A DNA stretch of 32,236 nt from a virus. A model generated the notes under the pieces. That model saw only the letters and a list, made by a program, of their open reading frames with translations. It ran no database searches and was not told the origin of the DNA. Within the stretch, counting starts at the first letter, position 1. Every line of letters starts with the position of its first letter. Where the stretch lies: positions 1 to 32,236 of the IMG/VR virus record IMGVR_UViG_3300021379_000365. One strand, 5' to 3'. Positions 14,945 to 32,236 of this stretch are shown here, one piece after another. The position numbers and the translations under genes were made by a program.

Positions 14945-15721
14945 TTACTGAGCAAATATCTGGCGGGCCTGTGACCGGAAATTTGCATCGCCGAAATAAA
15001 ACGACGAATAATCAGGCGTCAAACATGACGCCGCGTGTTCTGCGCTGTCGAATGTCAGCAAAAAGCGGTTCATCTTTTTAAGAATGTTTCTAAACTCGTC
15101 GAATTCCGCTTCGCACTCTTCATCGGTCAGCCAATAGGTTGCATGCTTCTTAGGCGTGACATAGGTGACGCCACAGCGATAATCGCCGCCCTTCAGGTGG
15201 TGGTATACCGCAATTTGACGACGGTGCTGTGCGCGCATCTCTGACGGGCACGCTTTGGTCGTCTTGAGGTCGATGACGACCTTGTCAGGCGTCTCCCAAA
15301 CGAAATCGTCATATCCGAGCACGTCGACCTTACCATCACCAAAATCAACCTCACCGACGAGCTTGTTCTGCGTGCTGTGCGGTCGGCCATATTCTTTCAG
15401 TGCTTCGACCGTTTGCTCGACAAATCCGGCCATCAGTGCCGCCTCTTTCTCGCGCAGCTCCGGTGCCACGACCAGTGCCGTTTGCCGGTTAAAGTCATCA
15501 AGCGCTGCCTGTTGGCCGCGGGCAAGGTCGAATTCACTAAACTCATCGCCCCATGCGCGTTCAAAGCCGACCTCTGTCGCGCTTCCGCGCGCCGTGTTCT
15601 GATTGCCGGCGCTGCGCAGCTTGAACATATACTGCATGACGTATGCCGCCGGTGCCGCCTCAAATGTATTCCCCATGCTGACGCTTGCCGCGTCAATGCC
15701 GTGTTTTGCAAACCCTGTCAT
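14945..15721 (-). CDS. RecB/Cas4-like PD-(D/E)XK exonuclease
   Basis: A 258-residue nuclease. Catalytic-type residues are seen in GEVDFGDGKVDVLGYDDF and, after a short spacer, VVIDLKTTK (the D-x-K element), followed by the QxxxY-type motif QIAVYHHL. This order matches the RecB-like nuclease domain of Cas4 and phage recombination exonucleases. No Fe-S cysteine cluster of the Cas4 kind is seen. A role in end processing with the SSB-like protein and RusA is likely. Its ATG overlaps the HNH stop (ATGA). Confidence 0.82.
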   Translation of the reverse strand: MTGFAKHGIDAASVSMGNTFEAAPAAYVMQYMFKLRSAGNQNTARGSATEVGFERAWGDEFSEFDLARGQQAALDDFNRQTALVVAPELREKEAALMAGFVEQTVEALKEYGRPHSTQNKLVGEVDFGDGKVDVLGYDDFVWETPDKVVIDLKTTKACPSEMRAQHRRQIAVYHHLKGGDYRCGVTYVTPKKHATYWLTDEECEAEFDEFRNILKKMNRFLLTFDSAEHAASCLTPDYSSFYFGDANFRSQARQIFAQ

Positions 15722-16212
15722 TGACTAATCTCCCCGTGATTTTCGTGAAATTTATAAACCACGTTTGCTTTTTGCCTCGCGGCGATTGCCTCGTCTTTTG
15801 TCTTAAACGAACCAACCCATTTTTTTTTGCCATTAACTTGGATTGCTGCTCGCCATTCTTGCCGTTTTTTGTGATAGCTCACGCCGTTAAAACCAGAAGT
15901 GTTATGGCGGTTTAACTTTTGATTGCGTGCGTTATCTGACCGCGACACTAACCTTAGGTTTTCAATGCGATTGTCACTGCGGTCGTGATTTATATGGTCA
16001 ATGAAGCCATCAGGCCATTTGCCATAATGTAAAAACCAAGCCACGCGATGTGCACCGGTCGACTTACCTTGTATCGAAACCCTGCGGTAACCTTCACTCA
16101 AACTACCCGCCACACGTTTGTTTGATTTATAACAAACATCTTTATCAATTAAGCAAAACAAGCTGCGAACCTTTTCGTCATCTAAATTAAGCCACCTATT
16201 ACCACCTGCCAT
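15718..16212 (-). CDS. HNH homing-type endonuclease with AP2 DNA-binding domain
   Basis: A 164-residue free-standing endonuclease. The HNH core is seen at HRVAWF (His55), IDHINHDRSDNRIENLR (His73, His76, Asn81 region). The AP2-like domain spans about residues 107-150: GFNGVSYHKKRQEWRAAI then KKWVGSFKTKDEAIAARQK. Such genes are selfish or help in replacing a neighbour's allele in mixed infection. ATG 16212 overlaps the RusA stop (TGATG), and the 3' end overlaps the next gene by 4 bases. The gene looks more A/T-rich than its neighbours, consistent with recent arrival. Confidence 0.9.
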   Translation of the reverse strand: MAGGNRWLNLDDEKVRSLFCLIDKDVCYKSNKRVAGSLSEGYRRVSIQGKSTGAHRVAWFLHYGKWPDGFIDHINHDRSDNRIENLRLVSRSDNARNQKLNRHNTSGFNGVSYHKKRQEWRAAIQVNGKKKWVGSFKTKDEAIAARQKANVVYKFHENHGEISQ

Positions 16213-16580
16213 CAATCCATCTCCCATACTCTGACCTGACAATAGTCAATGTCGTTTGACCACATCACCATCACTTGCCACGCATTTGCGTCGTCGACCA
16301 CGATACCGGCGTGCTGCAATAAGTCGAGCACCGGCTTAACGCGATTGTCGATGTCGACCTTGCGCGTCGATATTGAGCCATCTTTGCGACGCGGTCTGCC
16401 GACCGTGATTTCGCAAATGAACGGGCCGGCAATTTGTGGCCGCTGTTCCAGCTCAAGCATGAGCAAGCACTCTTCAAGCCAGTCAGTGTATTTCTTCGAC
16501 CGGTGCATGCGCCGCCCTGAGACACGCCAGAGGGCGTTGACGCTTGGCGGTATTGGCAATGCGTATTCATAGAGCCTCAC
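16212..16580 (-). CDS. rusA: RusA-type Holliday junction resolvase
   Basis: A 122-residue resolvase. The GTG at 16580 gives the family length (about 120) and has AGAGG eight bases upstream; the longer frame would run deep into the regulator gene. It begins VRLYEYALPIPPSVNALWR, typical of RusA. Acidic and basic active-site residues are seen as Asp76 and Asp78 in KVDIDNRVKP, Lys82, and Asp96/97 in GIVVDDANAW. It cuts four-way junctions made during replication or recombination, clearing DNA for packaging. It overlaps the upstream regulator by 14 bases. Confidence 0.9.
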   Translation of the reverse strand: MRLYEYALPIPPSVNALWRVSGRRMHRSKKYTDWLEECLLMLELEQRPQIAGPFICEITVGRPRRKDGSISTRKVDIDNRVKPVLDLLQHAGIVVDDANAWQVMVMWSNDIDYCQVRVWEMD

Positions 16581-16776
16581 GACGCAAGCCTCTGAGCTGG
16601 TCGCTGGCGTTGACCTTGCCATCGGTCACATCCTCAATGGCCAGCATGATAAGCGGGCGCGGGAACCGTGTGCCCTGACGATATTGCGTCACAGCGCTGC
16701 GGCTGGTGCCGATGCGCTTGGCAAATTTATCGTCGGTCATCTCCGGCGTTGTTTTGAAATATTCTTGCAGTGTCAT
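16567..16776 (-). CDS. Cro/YdaS-like helix-turn-helix regulator
   Basis: A 69-residue DNA-binding protein. It opens MTLQEYFKTTPEMTDDKFAKR, then IGTSRSAVTQYRQGTRFPRP, the helix-turn-helix of Cro/C1-type or YdaS-like regulators (helix 2 near 16-23, recognition helix near 27-36). ATG 16776 follows AAGGGA at good spacing. It lies at the border of the early and replication blocks and could act on the operator-like repeats at the early promoters, but nothing shows this directly. No C-terminal peptidase or dimer domain is present, so it is not a CI-type repressor. Confidence 0.8.
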   Translation of the reverse strand: MTLQEYFKTTPEMTDDKFAKRIGTSRSAVTQYRQGTRFPRPLIMLAIEDVTDGKVNASDQLRGLRREAL

Positions 16777-18277: not shown

Positions 18278-18369
18278 CGTTTCATTCCTTCCATTTAAGC
18301 ATTAACCATTTTGTGAGGACGGCAACACACTGCCGCCGCCCTCGTTCTTGTCGACCGCTTCACGCGGCT
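18278..18369 (-). ncRNA. Two tandem hairpins after the SprT-like gene
   Basis: In minus-strand RNA, 18368-18364 pairs with 18358-18354 (5 bp, one G-U), with the stop codon UGA inside the pentaloop. Further on, GAGGGCGGC (18343-18335) pairs with GCCGTCCTC (18323-18315) in a 9-bp stem with one G-U and an 11-base loop. No U-run follows. The rest of this 80-base gap holds only the next gene's ribosome-binding site. Confidence 0.5.
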
Positions 18370-18863
18370 TCTTTTAACGCGGCTGCGATTGCCGGATTGA
18401 CCAGCTCCCGTCGCAGCCAGCGATATATCATTCGCCACCCGTCACCGTGCGGCTTTTTCATTTTCTCTGCCCATGCGTCGCTCATTTTCCACGCATAGTC
18501 TGTCTGAACGTGATGCGCGACCTCGTGCGCCACAAGAGCGAACAGGACGTTGTCACGATGACCGGCCAGTGCCACGGCACCGATGACAGGGTCATTGGCG
18601 ATTGCTTTATACTCCCAGAGCCGGTCACAGCCGCGCATGTAATCTGAGACGTCAATCGTGATGCCGCCCGCGCCACCATATGAGGCTTGACCGCTTTTCT
18701 TTGTGATGACTGCAATGCTGCGCGTCAGCGGCGGCAGCTCATAGTCTTTCTTCGACAGCTCGCGCATGCAGCGCGCAGCCATCTTGACGACCAGCTTGTG
18801 CACGTCAGCCGGCACGTTATGACCGCGGCGGCTGATGATTTGATTTTGGTTGAATTTTTTCAT
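18360..18863 (-). CDS. SprT-like zinc metalloprotease
   Basis: A 167-residue protein with a clear gluzincin motif HEVAHHVQ (His113, Glu114, His117) and a likely third ligand His139 in KPHGDGWRMIYRWLRRELVN. The helix-HExxH-loop-H pattern resembles SprT-like domains, which in cells degrade proteins stuck to DNA. Here it may remove host DNA-binding proteins or aid replication; this is inference. ATG 18863 gives seven bases from GGGGAG, better than the ATG two codons upstream. Confidence 0.68.
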   Translation of the reverse strand: MKKFNQNQIISRRGHNVPADVHKLVVKMAARCMRELSKKDYELPPLTRSIAVITKKSGQASYGGAGGITIDVSDYMRGCDRLWEYKAIANDPVIGAVALAGHRDNVLFALVAHEVAHHVQTDYAWKMSDAWAEKMKKPHGDGWRMIYRWLRRELVNPAIAAALKEAA

Positions 18864-18875
18864 GGTCATTCTCCC

Positions 18876-19115
18876 CTATGCCAATTTGCCGGCCAGCATG
18901 ACCAGCAATTCTTTGCGAGTGTCGGCTGCGGCGATGCGCTTGAAAACCTTGCGGTGCCCAAGCATTGCAAATTCGCCAAAATCCAAAGCCACCCAGCGGT
19001 TTGAAAAATTGCGCACAACGATGTTCTCGTGACCGGCGACAGCCCACTCGGCTTTGTCATTGCCCATGCCGTTGCCGTTCCATTTGGCGTCTGCGGTTTT
19101 TTTCAGTTTCATCAT
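18876..19115 (-). CDS. Unknown early protein behind promoter P2
   Basis: A 79-residue protein starting M-M-K-L-K-K-T at ATG 19115, eight bases from AGAGGAG in the duplicated leader. Upstream in-frame codons lie inside that leader and are rejected. The core (AEWAVAGHENIVVRNFSNRW then VALDFGEFAMLGHRKVF) looks folded, and the C-terminus is helical (AADTRKELLVMLAGKLA). No family recognised. It is the first gene after the second early promoter. Confidence 0.6.
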   Translation of the reverse strand: MMKLKKTADAKWNGNGMGNDKAEWAVAGHENIVVRNFSNRWVALDFGEFAMLGHRKVFKRIAAADTRKELLVMLAGKLA

Positions 19116-19206
19116 CGGTTTCACTCCTCTGTTTGCGTTTCCGATAACCATTTTATTGCACGATTTGTGACATGCTGTCAAACACAATTTGTGACAAATG
19201 TGAAAA
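19112..19206 (-). promoter_or_regulatory. Early promoter P2 with operators and leader
   Basis: Minus strand: a consensus -35 box TTGACA (19181-19176) and an A/T-rich -10-like AATAAA (19157-19152) at 18 bases. Operator-like repeats CACGATTTGTGACA (19159-19172, between the boxes) and CACAATTTGTGACA (19183-19196, just upstream) are 24 bases apart, with a weaker ACAAATGTGAAAA beside them. A 36-bp leader with the ribosome-binding site (19112-19147) is identical to the one at promoter P1. A shared regulator is likely. Confidence 0.7.
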
Positions 19207-19217
19207 TAATTTCATGC

Positions 19218-19439
19218 CTATTTTTCCGGTTCCCCGCGCTCTTTGATATTGTCGCGCAGCTTCTCGTGCATCCACAGCGCCTCTGGCAAATTGGCGAACG
19301 TCACCACGAATATGTCATCGCCGTCCTTTGTGATACCCGCCAGAATGAATGCGTCGAGCTGGCCGTGCAGCTCTTGCAGCACGCGGTCAGGGTCAGTGTC
19401 CAACCGCGTGCCGCCATCGAATGAATAGATGCGTGCCAT
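19218..19439 (-). CDS. Unknown small early protein, 73 residues
   Basis: Starts M-A-R-I-Y-S-F-D-G-G one base after the upstream stop. The sequence (VLQELHGQLDAFILAGITKD then GDDIFVVTFANLPEALWMHE) suggests a small alpha/beta fold. The C-terminus is charged. No family recognised. It ends just before promoter P2, so it belongs to the P1 transcript. Confidence 0.55.
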   Translation of the reverse strand: MARIYSFDGGTRLDTDPDRVLQELHGQLDAFILAGITKDGDDIFVVTFANLPEALWMHEKLRDNIKERGEPEK

Positions 19440-19440
19440 G

Positions 19441-19647
19441 TCAGCAGCTCTGCCGGCGCCTGATGATACACGTCAGGCTTGTCTCCGAGCCGCGCTCGAC
19501 ACGCGCCTCGTGCCGGCTGAATTCGCGCAGATAGGCTGACCGGCCCGCCTGTAGACCGGCCAGCGTTTCGCCGACCACCCGAACGCGGATATAGTCGCCC
19601 TCTGGTGGCATGCGAAAAATTTCATAGTCACGAGTTTTGATTTTCAT
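19441..19647 (-). CDS. Unknown small basic early protein, 68 residues
   Basis: Starts M-K-I-K-T-R-D-Y after GGGAG. Beta-like N-terminus (YIRVRVVGETLAGLQAGRSA) and a basic C-terminus (FSRHEARVERGS then CIIRRRQSC). No family recognised. It sits two bases before the next start in the early operon. Confidence 0.55.
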   Translation of the reverse strand: MKIKTRDYEIFRMPPEGDYIRVRVVGETLAGLQAGRSAYLREFSRHEARVERGSETSLTCIIRRRQSC

Positions 19648-19658
19648 TTTGCTTCTCC

Positions 19659-20087
19659 CTATTCAGCCGCGAGCGAGACTTGGCCCTCGACGGGTTGACC
19701 GACACGGTCGCGATATAAAAGCATGAGTAGGTCGGCTCGGTCGCTCCAGAGCTCGACCATGCGATGCCTTTGGTTGTCCAGCATCCTGTCGTTGCCCGAC
19801 ATTTCAAGCGCCGTCGTTTTCGCGAGATATGCCCTCTCGACTAGCTCGTGGTCACTCATGCTGAGCATCCGGTCGACATATTCGTCCATCTGCTGAAGCG
19901 TCCGCGCGCGAGGTGGCCCCAGCCCCAGCGCACCGGTCGCCTTGCAAGCCCAGAGCAAGTCGACGCGCTTGACGGTTAGCTCCCAGCTCTCATAACGCTT
20001 CCTCACGCAAGCGTCGCGCAATTCAGGAACCGACCAGCTTGTATAGCCGCCGTCGACAGTTTTTTTGATGTGTTTCAATTTTGGCAT
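19659..20087 (-). CDS. Unknown early protein, 142 residues
   Basis: ATG 20087 (M-P-K-L-K-H) lies seven bases after GGAG; an ATG two codons upstream is too close. The protein is mostly helical and charged: SWSVPELRDACVRKRYESWE, then LLWACKATGALG and RTLQQMDEYVDRMLSMSDHE. No catalytic motif or membrane segment is seen and no family is recognised. Confidence 0.57.
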   Translation of the reverse strand: MPKLKHIKKTVDGGYTSWSVPELRDACVRKRYESWELTVKRVDLLWACKATGALGLGPPRARTLQQMDEYVDRMLSMSDHELVERAYLAKTTALEMSGNDRMLDNQRHRMVELWSDRADLLMLLYRDRVGQPVEGQVSLAAE

Positions 20088-20107
20088 TTTCATTCTCCTC
20101 TGATGGC

Positions 20108-20133
20108 GAGGTGCCGGCCTAAGCCAGCACCTC
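20108..20133 (-). ncRNA. Intercistronic hairpin with the stop codon in its loop
   Basis: Minus-strand RNA GAGGUGCUGGC (20133-20123) pairs with GCCGGCACCUC (20118-20108): 11 bp with one G-U. The tetraloop UUAG (20122-20119) contains the UAG stop codon of the upstream gene. No U-run follows. The next gene's ribosome-binding site begins a few bases downstream. Confidence 0.6.
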
Positions 20134-20451
20134 TGGTTTCATGCGCTCATAATCGGCGCGCTTCATTTTGAACCGGACGGTGCCCCGTGCGGTCGACAGG
20201 TGCACCCACTTGTGGCCGACGAATGCCCACATGCAATGCACGCCACTGAGCTGCGAATGCTCATTGTTGAAATGCATGCGAACGAATTGCGATTTCTTGA
20301 ACCGCGCGTCCCACGTCTTGCCGAGCTGCTTCGGCGGCACGACTTTGAATTTCGTGCGGCGCTTGCGACGGGCCGGTGTCAGTTTGACCGGCGCGACGCT
20401 GCCCTTGCGGATAAGAAAATCAGGATGATTGATGGTTTCATGATTTTTCAT
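20119..20451 (-). CDS. Unknown basic early protein, 110 residues
   Basis: ATG 20451 (M-K-N-H-E-T-I-N) lies seven bases after GGAG. The protein is basic (VKLTPARRKRRTKFKVVPP, WDARFKKSQFVRMHFNNE) with a C-terminal beta segment (HKWVHLSTARGTVRFKMKRA). It may bind nucleic acid, but no family is recognised. Its last codons and stop form the hairpin at 20108-20133, and its ribosome-binding site lies in a small CCCCAATGGGG stem. Confidence 0.57.
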   Translation of the reverse strand: MKNHETINHPDFLIRKGSVAPVKLTPARRKRRTKFKVVPPKQLGKTWDARFKKSQFVRMHFNNEHSQLSGVHCMWAFVGHKWVHLSTARGTVRFKMKRADYERMKPEVLA

Positions 20452-20469
20452 GATGATGCTCCCCATTGG

Positions 20470-20493
20470 GGTGCGGGCCGTTAGGCCCACACC
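20470..20493 (-). ncRNA. Intercistronic hairpin with the stop codon in its loop
   Basis: Minus-strand RNA GGUGUGGGCC (20493-20484) pairs with GGCCCGCACC (20479-20470): 10 bp with one G-U. The tetraloop UAAC holds the UAA stop codon of the upstream gene. It is followed at once by the CCCCAAUGGGG mini-stem over the next ribosome-binding site. Confidence 0.6.
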
Positions 20494-20831
20494 TTTCTGT
20501 TTTCGTCATACTGACGATATTGATGGATGACATCGAGGCTGCGCTTGCGGAGAGGCGTGCGAACCTTGCGGCTCACCATCTCTGTGCGCATCTCTTCATA
20601 TAGATTTTCCATACGCACAATGCCTTTCATGTATTCATCGACCTGTTCGGTGATGTCCTCGATAAATTCACCAATGCGTCGACCATGAGGCAGCTCATGT
20701 GGTTGGCTCATTGCAGCGGCAAGGCGAATGCCAAGCTCCCCTGCCTTGCGCAAGTGCAAATTGATGTGATACTCAAGGCGCTCAATTCTGTGCAACATTT
20801 GCTTGTCGCTGTATTCTTCATATTCACTCAT
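20481..20831 (-). CDS. Unknown helical early protein, first gene of promoter P1
   Basis: A 116-residue protein starting M-S-E-Y-E-E-Y-S-D-K at ATG 20831, eight bases from AGAGGAG in the duplicated leader. It is helical and likely coiled coil (MLHRIERLEYHINLHLRKAG, EFIEDITEQVDEYMKGIVRM), ending in a basic region (RKVRTPLRKRSLDVIHQYRQ). No family recognised. As the first gene of the early transcript it is a candidate host-takeover protein, by position only. Confidence 0.6.
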   Translation of the reverse strand: MSEYEEYSDKQMLHRIERLEYHINLHLRKAGELGIRLAAAMSQPHELPHGRRIGEFIEDITEQVDEYMKGIVRMENLYEEMRTEMVSRKVRTPLRKRSLDVIHQYRQYDENRKVWA

Positions 20832-20919
20832 CGGTTTCACTCCTCTGTTTGCGTTTCCGATAATTTGATTATACACGTTTCGTGACCGCGTGCAACACTT
20901 CGTGACACAAAATGTGAAA
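20828..20919 (-). promoter_or_regulatory. Early promoter P1 with operators and leader
   Basis: Minus strand: a perfect -10 box TATAAT (20873-20868) with a -35-like TTGCAC (20895-20890) at 16 bases. Operator-like repeats CACGTTTCGTGACC (20874-20887, between the boxes), AACACTTCGTGACA (20894-20907) and CACAAAATGTGAAA (20906-20919) share the TTYGTGAC core with P2. The 36-bp leader 20828-20863 is identical to 19112-19147. Confidence 0.75.
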
Positions 20920-32043: not shown

Positions 32044-32236
32044 TTAAAACGCCTTGCTATAAGCGCCGCCGCGTTTGCGTGCATCGAGCACAGCGGCTTT
32101 CGACGCTTCTGCAATCTGCGGCATGAGCTGAGTGATTTCAGCGCGCACGGTCTGTGAGACGCCGGTCGATATGTTGACAGTTTGATTGACGGTCACACCG
32201 CCGCCGCCCATGTTCTTATTAGGAACGATGCTGCAC
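32044..32236 (-). CDS. Tail tape measure protein, C-terminal part at the contig end
   Basis: The 3' end of the gene that starts at 1433. Unique to this end are bases 32044-32104, coding for the last residues (ASKAAVLDARKRGGAYSKAF) and the TAA stop. The next gene's ATG follows two bases after the stop. Bases 32105-32230 repeat the other end, and the last six bases do not match it. Confidence 0.88.
   Translation of the reverse strand, partial: CSIVPNKNMGGGGVTVNQTVNISTGVSQTVRAEITQLMPQIAEASKAAVLDARKRGGAYSKAF
32105..32230. repeat. Direct terminal repeat, right copy
   Basis: Exact copy of bases 1-126. The following six bases (CTGCAC) differ from bases 127-132 (GTGCCG), so the contig tip holds an error or comes from a variant molecule. 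Confidence 0.93.

Follow-up and report, generated by a model that had tools for sequence, protein, structure and literature searches.

Duplicated promoter-operator-leader cassettes in an uncultured marine phage and their probable control by a small Cro/YdaS-like protein

A virus record of 32,236 bases from a marine tailed phage (IMG/VR IMGVR_UViG_3300021379_000365), referred to here as the window, meaning the whole stretch of DNA that was analysed, contains two copies of a cassette in which a promoter with two operator-like sites is followed by a leader that is the same at both places. The two promoters, termed P1 and P2, are probably repressed by the phage's own 69-amino-acid (aa) Cro/YdaS-like protein, and their transcripts would begin with a leader that forms a hairpin. 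Comparison of related phage sequences reveals the operators, the leader, its stem, the duplication and the variability of the genes placed behind it. Transcription starts, binding by the helix-turn-helix (HTH) protein, early timing and an effect on translation are what we infer from these properties.

Promoters and operators of the two cassettes

The initial annotation described a 36-bp repeat at 19112-19147 and 20828-20863, and the repeat is exact. It is present only twice in the window, even when three mismatches are allowed, and is not found in shuffled sequences. Its description as a leader holds at both loci, but the strand has to be changed: everything reads on the minus strand, and the repeat includes a Shine-Dalgarno (SD) sequence (AGAGGAG) and an ATG. 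In this orientation the repeat is TT-ATCGGAAACGCAAACAGAGGAGTGAAACCG-ATG-A, that is, leader, SD and start codon, with gene starts at 20831 and 19115. Directly upstream of each copy there is a sigma70-type promoter with two operator-like sites.

20890..20895, minus strand: P2 -35 hexamer TTGCAC, from the sequence; relatives have TTGACA/TTGACC at the homologous position
20868..20873, minus strand: P2 -10 hexamer TATAAT, from the sequence; spacer 16
19176..19181, minus strand: P1 -35 hexamer TTGACA, from the sequence
19152..19157, minus strand: probable but uncertain P1 -10 AATAAA, after TGC (extended -10), upstream of the invariant leader by the 6 nt that the other cassettes also have
20894..20906, minus strand: putative operator O2 of P2, GTCACGAAGTGTT; overlaps the -35, with GTCAC-R-N3-T-GT kept in 7/7 cassettes
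20874..20886, minus strand: putative operator O1 of P2, GTCACGAAACGTG; between -35 and -10
19183..19195, minus strand: putative operator O2 of P1, GTCACAAATTGTG
19159..19171, minus strand: putative operator O1 of P1, GTCACAAATCGTG; between -35 and -10
20906..20916, minus strand: possible third upstream site of P2, tentative, CACATTTTGTG; TTTCACATTT is kept upstream of O2 in 6/7 cassettes

Operator-like sequences with a TTYGTGAC core and CAC-n5-GTG symmetry had been proposed. All four cores can be located (19164-19171, 19188-19195, 20879-20886 and 20899-20906), and the spacings within the site pairs, 24 bp at P1 and 20 bp at P2, are as claimed. The symmetry is exact in three of the four sites; the fourth (20894-20906, AACACTTCGTGAC) is one letter short. 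Counted by itself, the octamer TTYGTGAC (GTCACRAA on the minus strand) shows no enrichment in the window (5 vs 2.8 expected). Two same-strand pairs of it within 30 bp are present, and 300 dinucleotide shuffles gave none.

Related phages with the same cassette were found by exact-pattern and protein searches. They are G002 (IMG/VR contig 3300048828_000417, L084), G025 (IMG/VR 3300017914_001921, L107) and G003, which consists of two contigs (L085, L106) of the bin Phyllobacteriaceae bacterium Water_Bin73. The window and G025 both have two cassettes, at corresponding places. Each of the two G003 contigs carries one, at the P1 and P2 positions, and in G002, whose contig ends before the P1 position, the P2-position copy is present. 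With the window included, this gives seven homologous cassettes from four phages. Alignment of the promoters with MAFFT is misleading in places, and counts were made on operator-anchored sequences instead.

Each of the seven cassettes has exactly two GTCACRnnnYGT operators, one that overlaps or abuts the -35 and one between -35 and -10. Positions 1-5 (GTCAC) and 11-12 (GT) are invariant in all 14 sites; position 6 is always R and position 10 always Y (C in every O1, T in every O2). The middle varies, e.g. AAA, TTT, AAG or ATT, and invariant arms around a variable middle are expected of a site that binds a dimer. O2 stays close to the -35 and O1 close to the -10, and the distance between the two operators ranges from 20 to 26 bp. 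Sites that are tied to the promoter hexamers while their mutual distance changes are a signature of operators inside a promoter. A lack of conservation of the sites in related phages had been named as grounds for rejecting them, and they passed this test, as two operators are kept in every cassette of the four phages. The same (coding) strand of the close relatives' contigs has no further GTCAC-N4-Y-GT matches.

The promoter reading is also supported by the relatives, whose copies of the cassette carry TTGACA/TTGACC-17-TATAAC. The promoter parts are 44-78% identical between cassettes, and the promoter subtypes (CAATAAAATGG, TATAATCAAAT and TATAACA) are found at either position: G002 has a P1-type promoter at the P2 position, and G003 a P2-type promoter at the P1 position.

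It is highly improbable that the GTCAC repeats are replication iterons and not operators. The idea comes from unrelated phages, where the same palindrome (GTCACRAAnYGTGAC) is found in closely spaced copies inside replisome-organiser-like open reading frames. In the phage group described here, however, there are two sites per promoter, locked to the -35 and -10 hexamers; they are at two separate promoters and not at one origin, and none is near the primase/helicase gene.

A relaxed operator pattern applied to IMG/VR returned L084 plus 16 contigs. Fifteen of the latter have their sites in replisome-organiser-like reading frames, whereas the site of L093 could not be assigned to such a frame; these contigs were regarded as unrelated. 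The HTH family is absent from all fetched loci of the relaxed-pattern contigs. The palindromes of L086-L092 and L094-L101 (e.g. L086:7255-7400) are often accompanied by further GTCAC half-sites every ~10 bp and belong mostly to GC-rich phages. They are translated in more than one reading frame (VTKRD, SRNVT) and have the look of replication iterons inside an initiator gene.

The shared leader and the genes behind it

From the predicted +1, 21 of 22 positions of the leader ATCGGRAACGCAAACAGAGGAG are invariant in the seven cassettes, compared with a single one of the 22 positions that precede it. The linker that follows the SD varies (TGAAA, TTAAC, TTAAA, ATTTT, ACGAA), and C/T-C-G before the ATG is kept.

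20829..20861, minus strand: P2 leader, from the predicted +1 (A at 20861) to the ATG, AUCGG AAACGCAAACAGAGGAGUGAAA CCGAUG; based on the exact repeat and folding
19113..19145, minus strand: P1 leader, identical to that of P2, with the same stem and SD loop

AUCGG at the 5′ end of the predicted RNA can pair with CCGAU in all cassettes, with one G-U pair in G025_P2. In P2 the stem has 5 bp, which an RNA start 2 nt further upstream would raise to 7; the loop contains the SD and the stem the AUG. The mean fold energy of the five distinct leaders is -5.1 kcal/mol, compared with -1.7 when the linker and the preceding bases are shuffled, and none of 2000 shuffles is as low; z-scores of individual leaders range from -1.05 to -2.35. 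An A follows the ATG in all eight genes and would lengthen the stem where the base two before +1 is T (7/8), but a general codon preference is an equally good explanation.

A more distant phage, G008 (TerL 65% and HTH protein 42% identical), has TTGACA-17-CATATT followed by TCATCGGAACTAACTAAGGAGGTGAGCCGATGA. It keeps the stem, TCATCGG...CCGATGA, around a wholly different loop, and among the sequences compared this is the strongest evidence that the stem is under constraint. The common translation control suggested in the initial annotation thus gains support from a conserved stem between the predicted 5′ end of the RNA and the start codon.

The first genes after the two leaders are variable, and their positions are termed slots.

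20481..20831, minus strand: 116-aa gene that comes first after P2, of no known family; variable slot, with a different gene in G025 and G002
18876..19115, minus strand: 79-aa gene that comes first after P1, of no known family; variable slot, the gene being absent in G003 and replaced in G025
18360..18869, minus strand: conserved gene downstream of P1, with a HEVAHH metalloprotease-like motif found by eye; directly behind the leader in G003

Behind P2, the 116-aa gene of the window has a 48%-identical homologue in G003 and is replaced by unrelated genes of 94 aa in G025 and 91 aa in G002. Behind P1, the 79-aa gene corresponds in position to a 61-aa gene in G025 and to nothing in G003, where the conserved gene starts right at the leader. 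The genes that flank the slots are 68-96% identical in most comparisons, and the next gene after the slot is 84-96% identical. Searches with the 116-aa protein found no relatives, which is consistent with a variable slot. The slot proteins have no convincing Pfam family match and no known anti-CRISPR match, and the HEVAHH gene has no match in Pfam or PHROG.

This raises the question of whether the leaders are alike because of a recent duplication or gene conversion, or because the leader is a joint for gene exchange at the DNA level, with an RNA stem that has no function. Promoter subtypes do swap positions between phages, the gene after the leader changes, and an identical leader is a natural crossover point. 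On the other hand, the conservation begins sharply at the predicted +1 in phages whose adjoining promoters have diverged, and the stem partner (Y)CG before the ATG is kept across divergent linkers, as is the whole stem of G008 around its unrelated loop. We regard this explanation as rather unlikely, although use of the leader in recombination could hold as a side effect even if the stem is functional.

The candidate regulator and its proposed circuit

16567..16776, minus strand: 69-aa HTH protein of Cro/YdaS-like type, candidate repressor of both promoters; from PHROG 35, PDB matches, a structure model and conservation

The HTH protein matches PHROG 35, transcriptional repressor (E=1e-5), and in sequence the YdaS/Cro entries 8co2 and 8c7k of the PDB (8co2, E=3.3e-4); its nearest solved relative is YdaS/Cro of CP-933P. 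YdaS acts like Cro (PMC8630535). The Pfam scores for HTH_3 and YdaS are below the curated cut-offs. A single-sequence model has five helices with a predicted local distance difference test (pLDDT) score of 72, and a Foldseek search with it places 434 Cro, HipB and YdaS near the top, yet all with E > 0.1; the model agrees with the sequence matches at modest confidence. The recognition helix is SRSAVTQYR. On its sequence relationship, the protein is filed as Cro/YdaS-like.

Two candidate regulators had been put forward, the HTH protein and a 170-aa winged-helix-like protein. In G003 and G025, where the operator is shared, the former is 86-87% identical to that of the window and the latter 38-39%, and this favours the HTH protein. 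Such co-conservation suggests that it is the repressor of both promoters.

The GTCAC/GTGAC motif also recurs with this family in genomes that came up in searches with the HTH protein or TerL, independently of the operator. G026 (IMG/VR 3300031839_000368) has the gene order of the window over most of its contig and an HTH protein that is 52% identical. Two of its promoters, TTGACG-17-TATAGA, contain CGTGAC between the hexamers and are followed by a common leader that is particular to this genome (CAAATTGAAACGAGGGTTTT). G009 (IMG/VR 3300025151_000217; HTH protein 47% identical) has two promoters TTGACGAAYAGTCACAAWT... with a second GTCAC downstream of each and a near-identical leader. Each of the two genomes thus has, independently, a pair of early-region promoters with a common leader and with a GTCAC/GTGAC half-site between -35 and -10. 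Leaders resemble one another inside a genome but not from one distant genome to another, and this points to homogenisation within the individual genomes.

A further repeated start-associated element is seen in L134/L135 (IMG/VR 3300025151_000217). On the reverse strand near 19763, 20037, 21846 and 22090, a hairpin of the type GAGGCGGC-GTAA-GCCGCCTC is found before several early-region genes, and in three cases it is directly followed by GAGAGGAGA (SD).

It is possible, but we think unlikely, that another protein binds the operators, be it the 170-aa winged-helix-like protein, a different phage protein or a host regulator, and that the HTH protein does something else. The 170-aa gene shares the gene run of the HTH protein, both G003 and G025 have a homologue of it, and the HTH family in G008 accompanies a different promoter sequence. 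However, the 170-aa protein has diverged where the operators are nearly unchanged, and family profile scans found no match for it. The recurrence of the spacer motif in G026 and G009 also argues for the HTH protein, as does the distribution of the operator pair, which was not detected in any of 21 further TerL-related records (among them a 5-kb fragment) or in the rest of the bacterial bin of G003.

The circuit proposed is as follows. Both cassettes would drive leftward, minus-strand transcription of genes that are presumed to be early. The gene run downstream of P1 and P2 encodes the HTH protein (co-transcription is assumed, with P1 the nearest promoter upstream), which would bind the operators (GTCAC-R-N3-Y-GTG/T/A) as a dimer and shut both promoters once it has accumulated. 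The outcome would be a burst of early transcription and then feedback repression. RNA from either promoter would begin with the same leader, where AUCGG would pair with CCGAU, including the AU of the start codon. The resulting 5′ hairpin would expose the SD in an A-rich loop and hold the AUG in the stem, so that it might standardise, and may regulate, translation of whichever gene comes first. The cassette can be looked at as a plug-in slot, with promoter subtypes at either position and a first gene that usually differs while its neighbours are conserved.

Several observations weigh against this interpretation. A generic promoter scan of the window listed neither P1 nor P2, because the P2 -35 (TTGCAC) and the P1 -10 (AATAAA or nearby) are poor, and the P1 -10 is weak. 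Carriers of the cassette are four close relatives only, the window included, and two of these are fragments. The operator half-sites are unequal, with O2 often ending GTT, and with an O2-O1 spacing of 20-26 bp a cooperative geometry is not evident. The promoter spacer of G008 has GTCATCA and not GTCAC despite its HTH protein of the same family (42%), so the link between protein and operator is not universal. Slot variability is not absolute either, given the 48%-identical homologue in G003. As for the hairpin, its stem is short, five pairs alone giving ~-3 kcal/mol at 37 C, and in G025_P1 and G003_P1 it competes with other folds after 40 nt of coding sequence are added. When the linker alone is shuffled, 18.7% of the sequences are as low in energy, so the inner loop pairs no better than shuffled sequence. 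As the fold is lost on shuffling the linker with the preceding bases but not on shuffling the linker alone, it is the outer stem that is constrained.

The genome and comparison with known systems

Nearly all genes of the window are on the minus strand, including those for terminase, portal, capsid-protease, tail, endolysin, primase-helicase, RusA and an HNH nuclease. The first and last 132 bases (1-132 and 32105-32236) are the same except at 3 positions, as expected if assembly ran round a circular or permuted genome. Megablast of the window against named phages gave no match, the best match of the cassette to named phages is a 21-nt chance match, and an Rfam scan of the window found no known RNA.

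The HNH endonuclease gene (15718-16242) is missing in L085, where its flanks are contiguous (15721 joins 16205, with ~7 bp between), which suggests a recent homing-type insertion in the phage of the window. FZLQ01000022.1 (L085) and contig C34 (L106/L112), which belong to one bin, look like parts of a phage closely related to that of the window; these contigs may be a phage binned with the bacterium and not a prophage. Many TerL-related contigs end ~400-560 bp upstream of TerL (L005, L006, L013, L018, L036, L049, L052, L060, L066), and several start exactly GGT..., ~26 nt before a conserved TAGCGACAGAA box. These ends look like a physical (cos) genome end, and by analogy the cut site of the window would be near ~10457 on the minus strand.

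In phage translational operators such as the MS2 replicase hairpin and the T4 gp43 operator, a hairpin joins the SD and the start codon at the ribosome-binding site. The stem described here differs in that it is at the very 5′ end, with the SD in a 19-22-nt loop. Aca2 controls acrIF8-aca2 at both the DNA and the RNA levels. The combination of promoter operators and a leader stem is similar, so a single HTH protein might work on DNA and RNA alike, but here the leader stem does not resemble the operator. A more elaborate scheme, in which one Cro-like protein acts on the DNA operators and on the start-codon hairpin in RNA, and a mobile cassette loads interchangeable, perhaps anti-defence, genes, seems quite improbable.

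In operons of anti-CRISPR (acr) and anti-CRISPR-associated (aca) genes, the core promoter contains an inverted repeat, frequently with a second, similar one close by (PMC9410906). The cassettes resemble those with Aca autorepressors in having a small HTH protein in the same run, variable small genes at the front and a logic of burst followed by repression (PMC9410906). O1 is between -35 and -10 in all seven cassettes, in an operon that encodes the HTH protein if co-transcription is assumed. Unlike acr-aca operons, the cassettes comprise two distinct promoters with a common operator family and a common leader, and the slot genes have no known anti-CRISPR match.

Lambdoid Cro/YdaS systems, e.g. 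YdaS of CP-933P (PMC8630535; PDB 8co2, 8c7k), are alike in having a small HTH protein, related in sequence to YdaS here, and several operators that overlap promoters. They differ in that both promoters of the window point the same way and the operator sequence is unlike that of CP-933P. A divergent promoter was not seen, and neither a CI-type repressor nor an integrase family was matched among the 30 proteins scanned, a set that does not take in every small open reading frame.

The start-associated sequence (SAS) of Cluster K mycobacteriophages has complementary ends around the SD (GGG-N7-CCC) (PMC3203893). With the SAS and extended SAS (ESAS), a conserved SD/start element precedes several non-structural genes of different families, and operator-like repeats are found upstream of part of the copies (PMC3203893); the cassettes resemble this in kind and not by homology. 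The SAS is a 13-bp GGGATAGGAGCCC at many gene starts and the leader is ATCGGAAACGCAAACAGAGGAG in only two copies per genome, 22 nt from the predicted +1, with a stem that takes in the start codon; there is no sequence relationship between the two. The SAS is without a known stem from +1 to AUG, and ESAS half-sites are 17-bp inverted repeats.

The circuit would work like Cro or Aca autorepression of an early operon, and the cassette appears to be a variant of a repressible early promoter that is filed with neither Aca nor SAS. For a group of marine phages that have not been cultured, it provides a specific early control circuit that can be tested. A leader that is kept from +1 to the SD, with a stem between the 5′ end and the start codon that is retained in a distant phage around a different loop, would represent an unusual design for translation start. 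The cassette also provides a sequence tag for the positions of swapped-in early genes, and such slots are places to look for anti-defence proteins.

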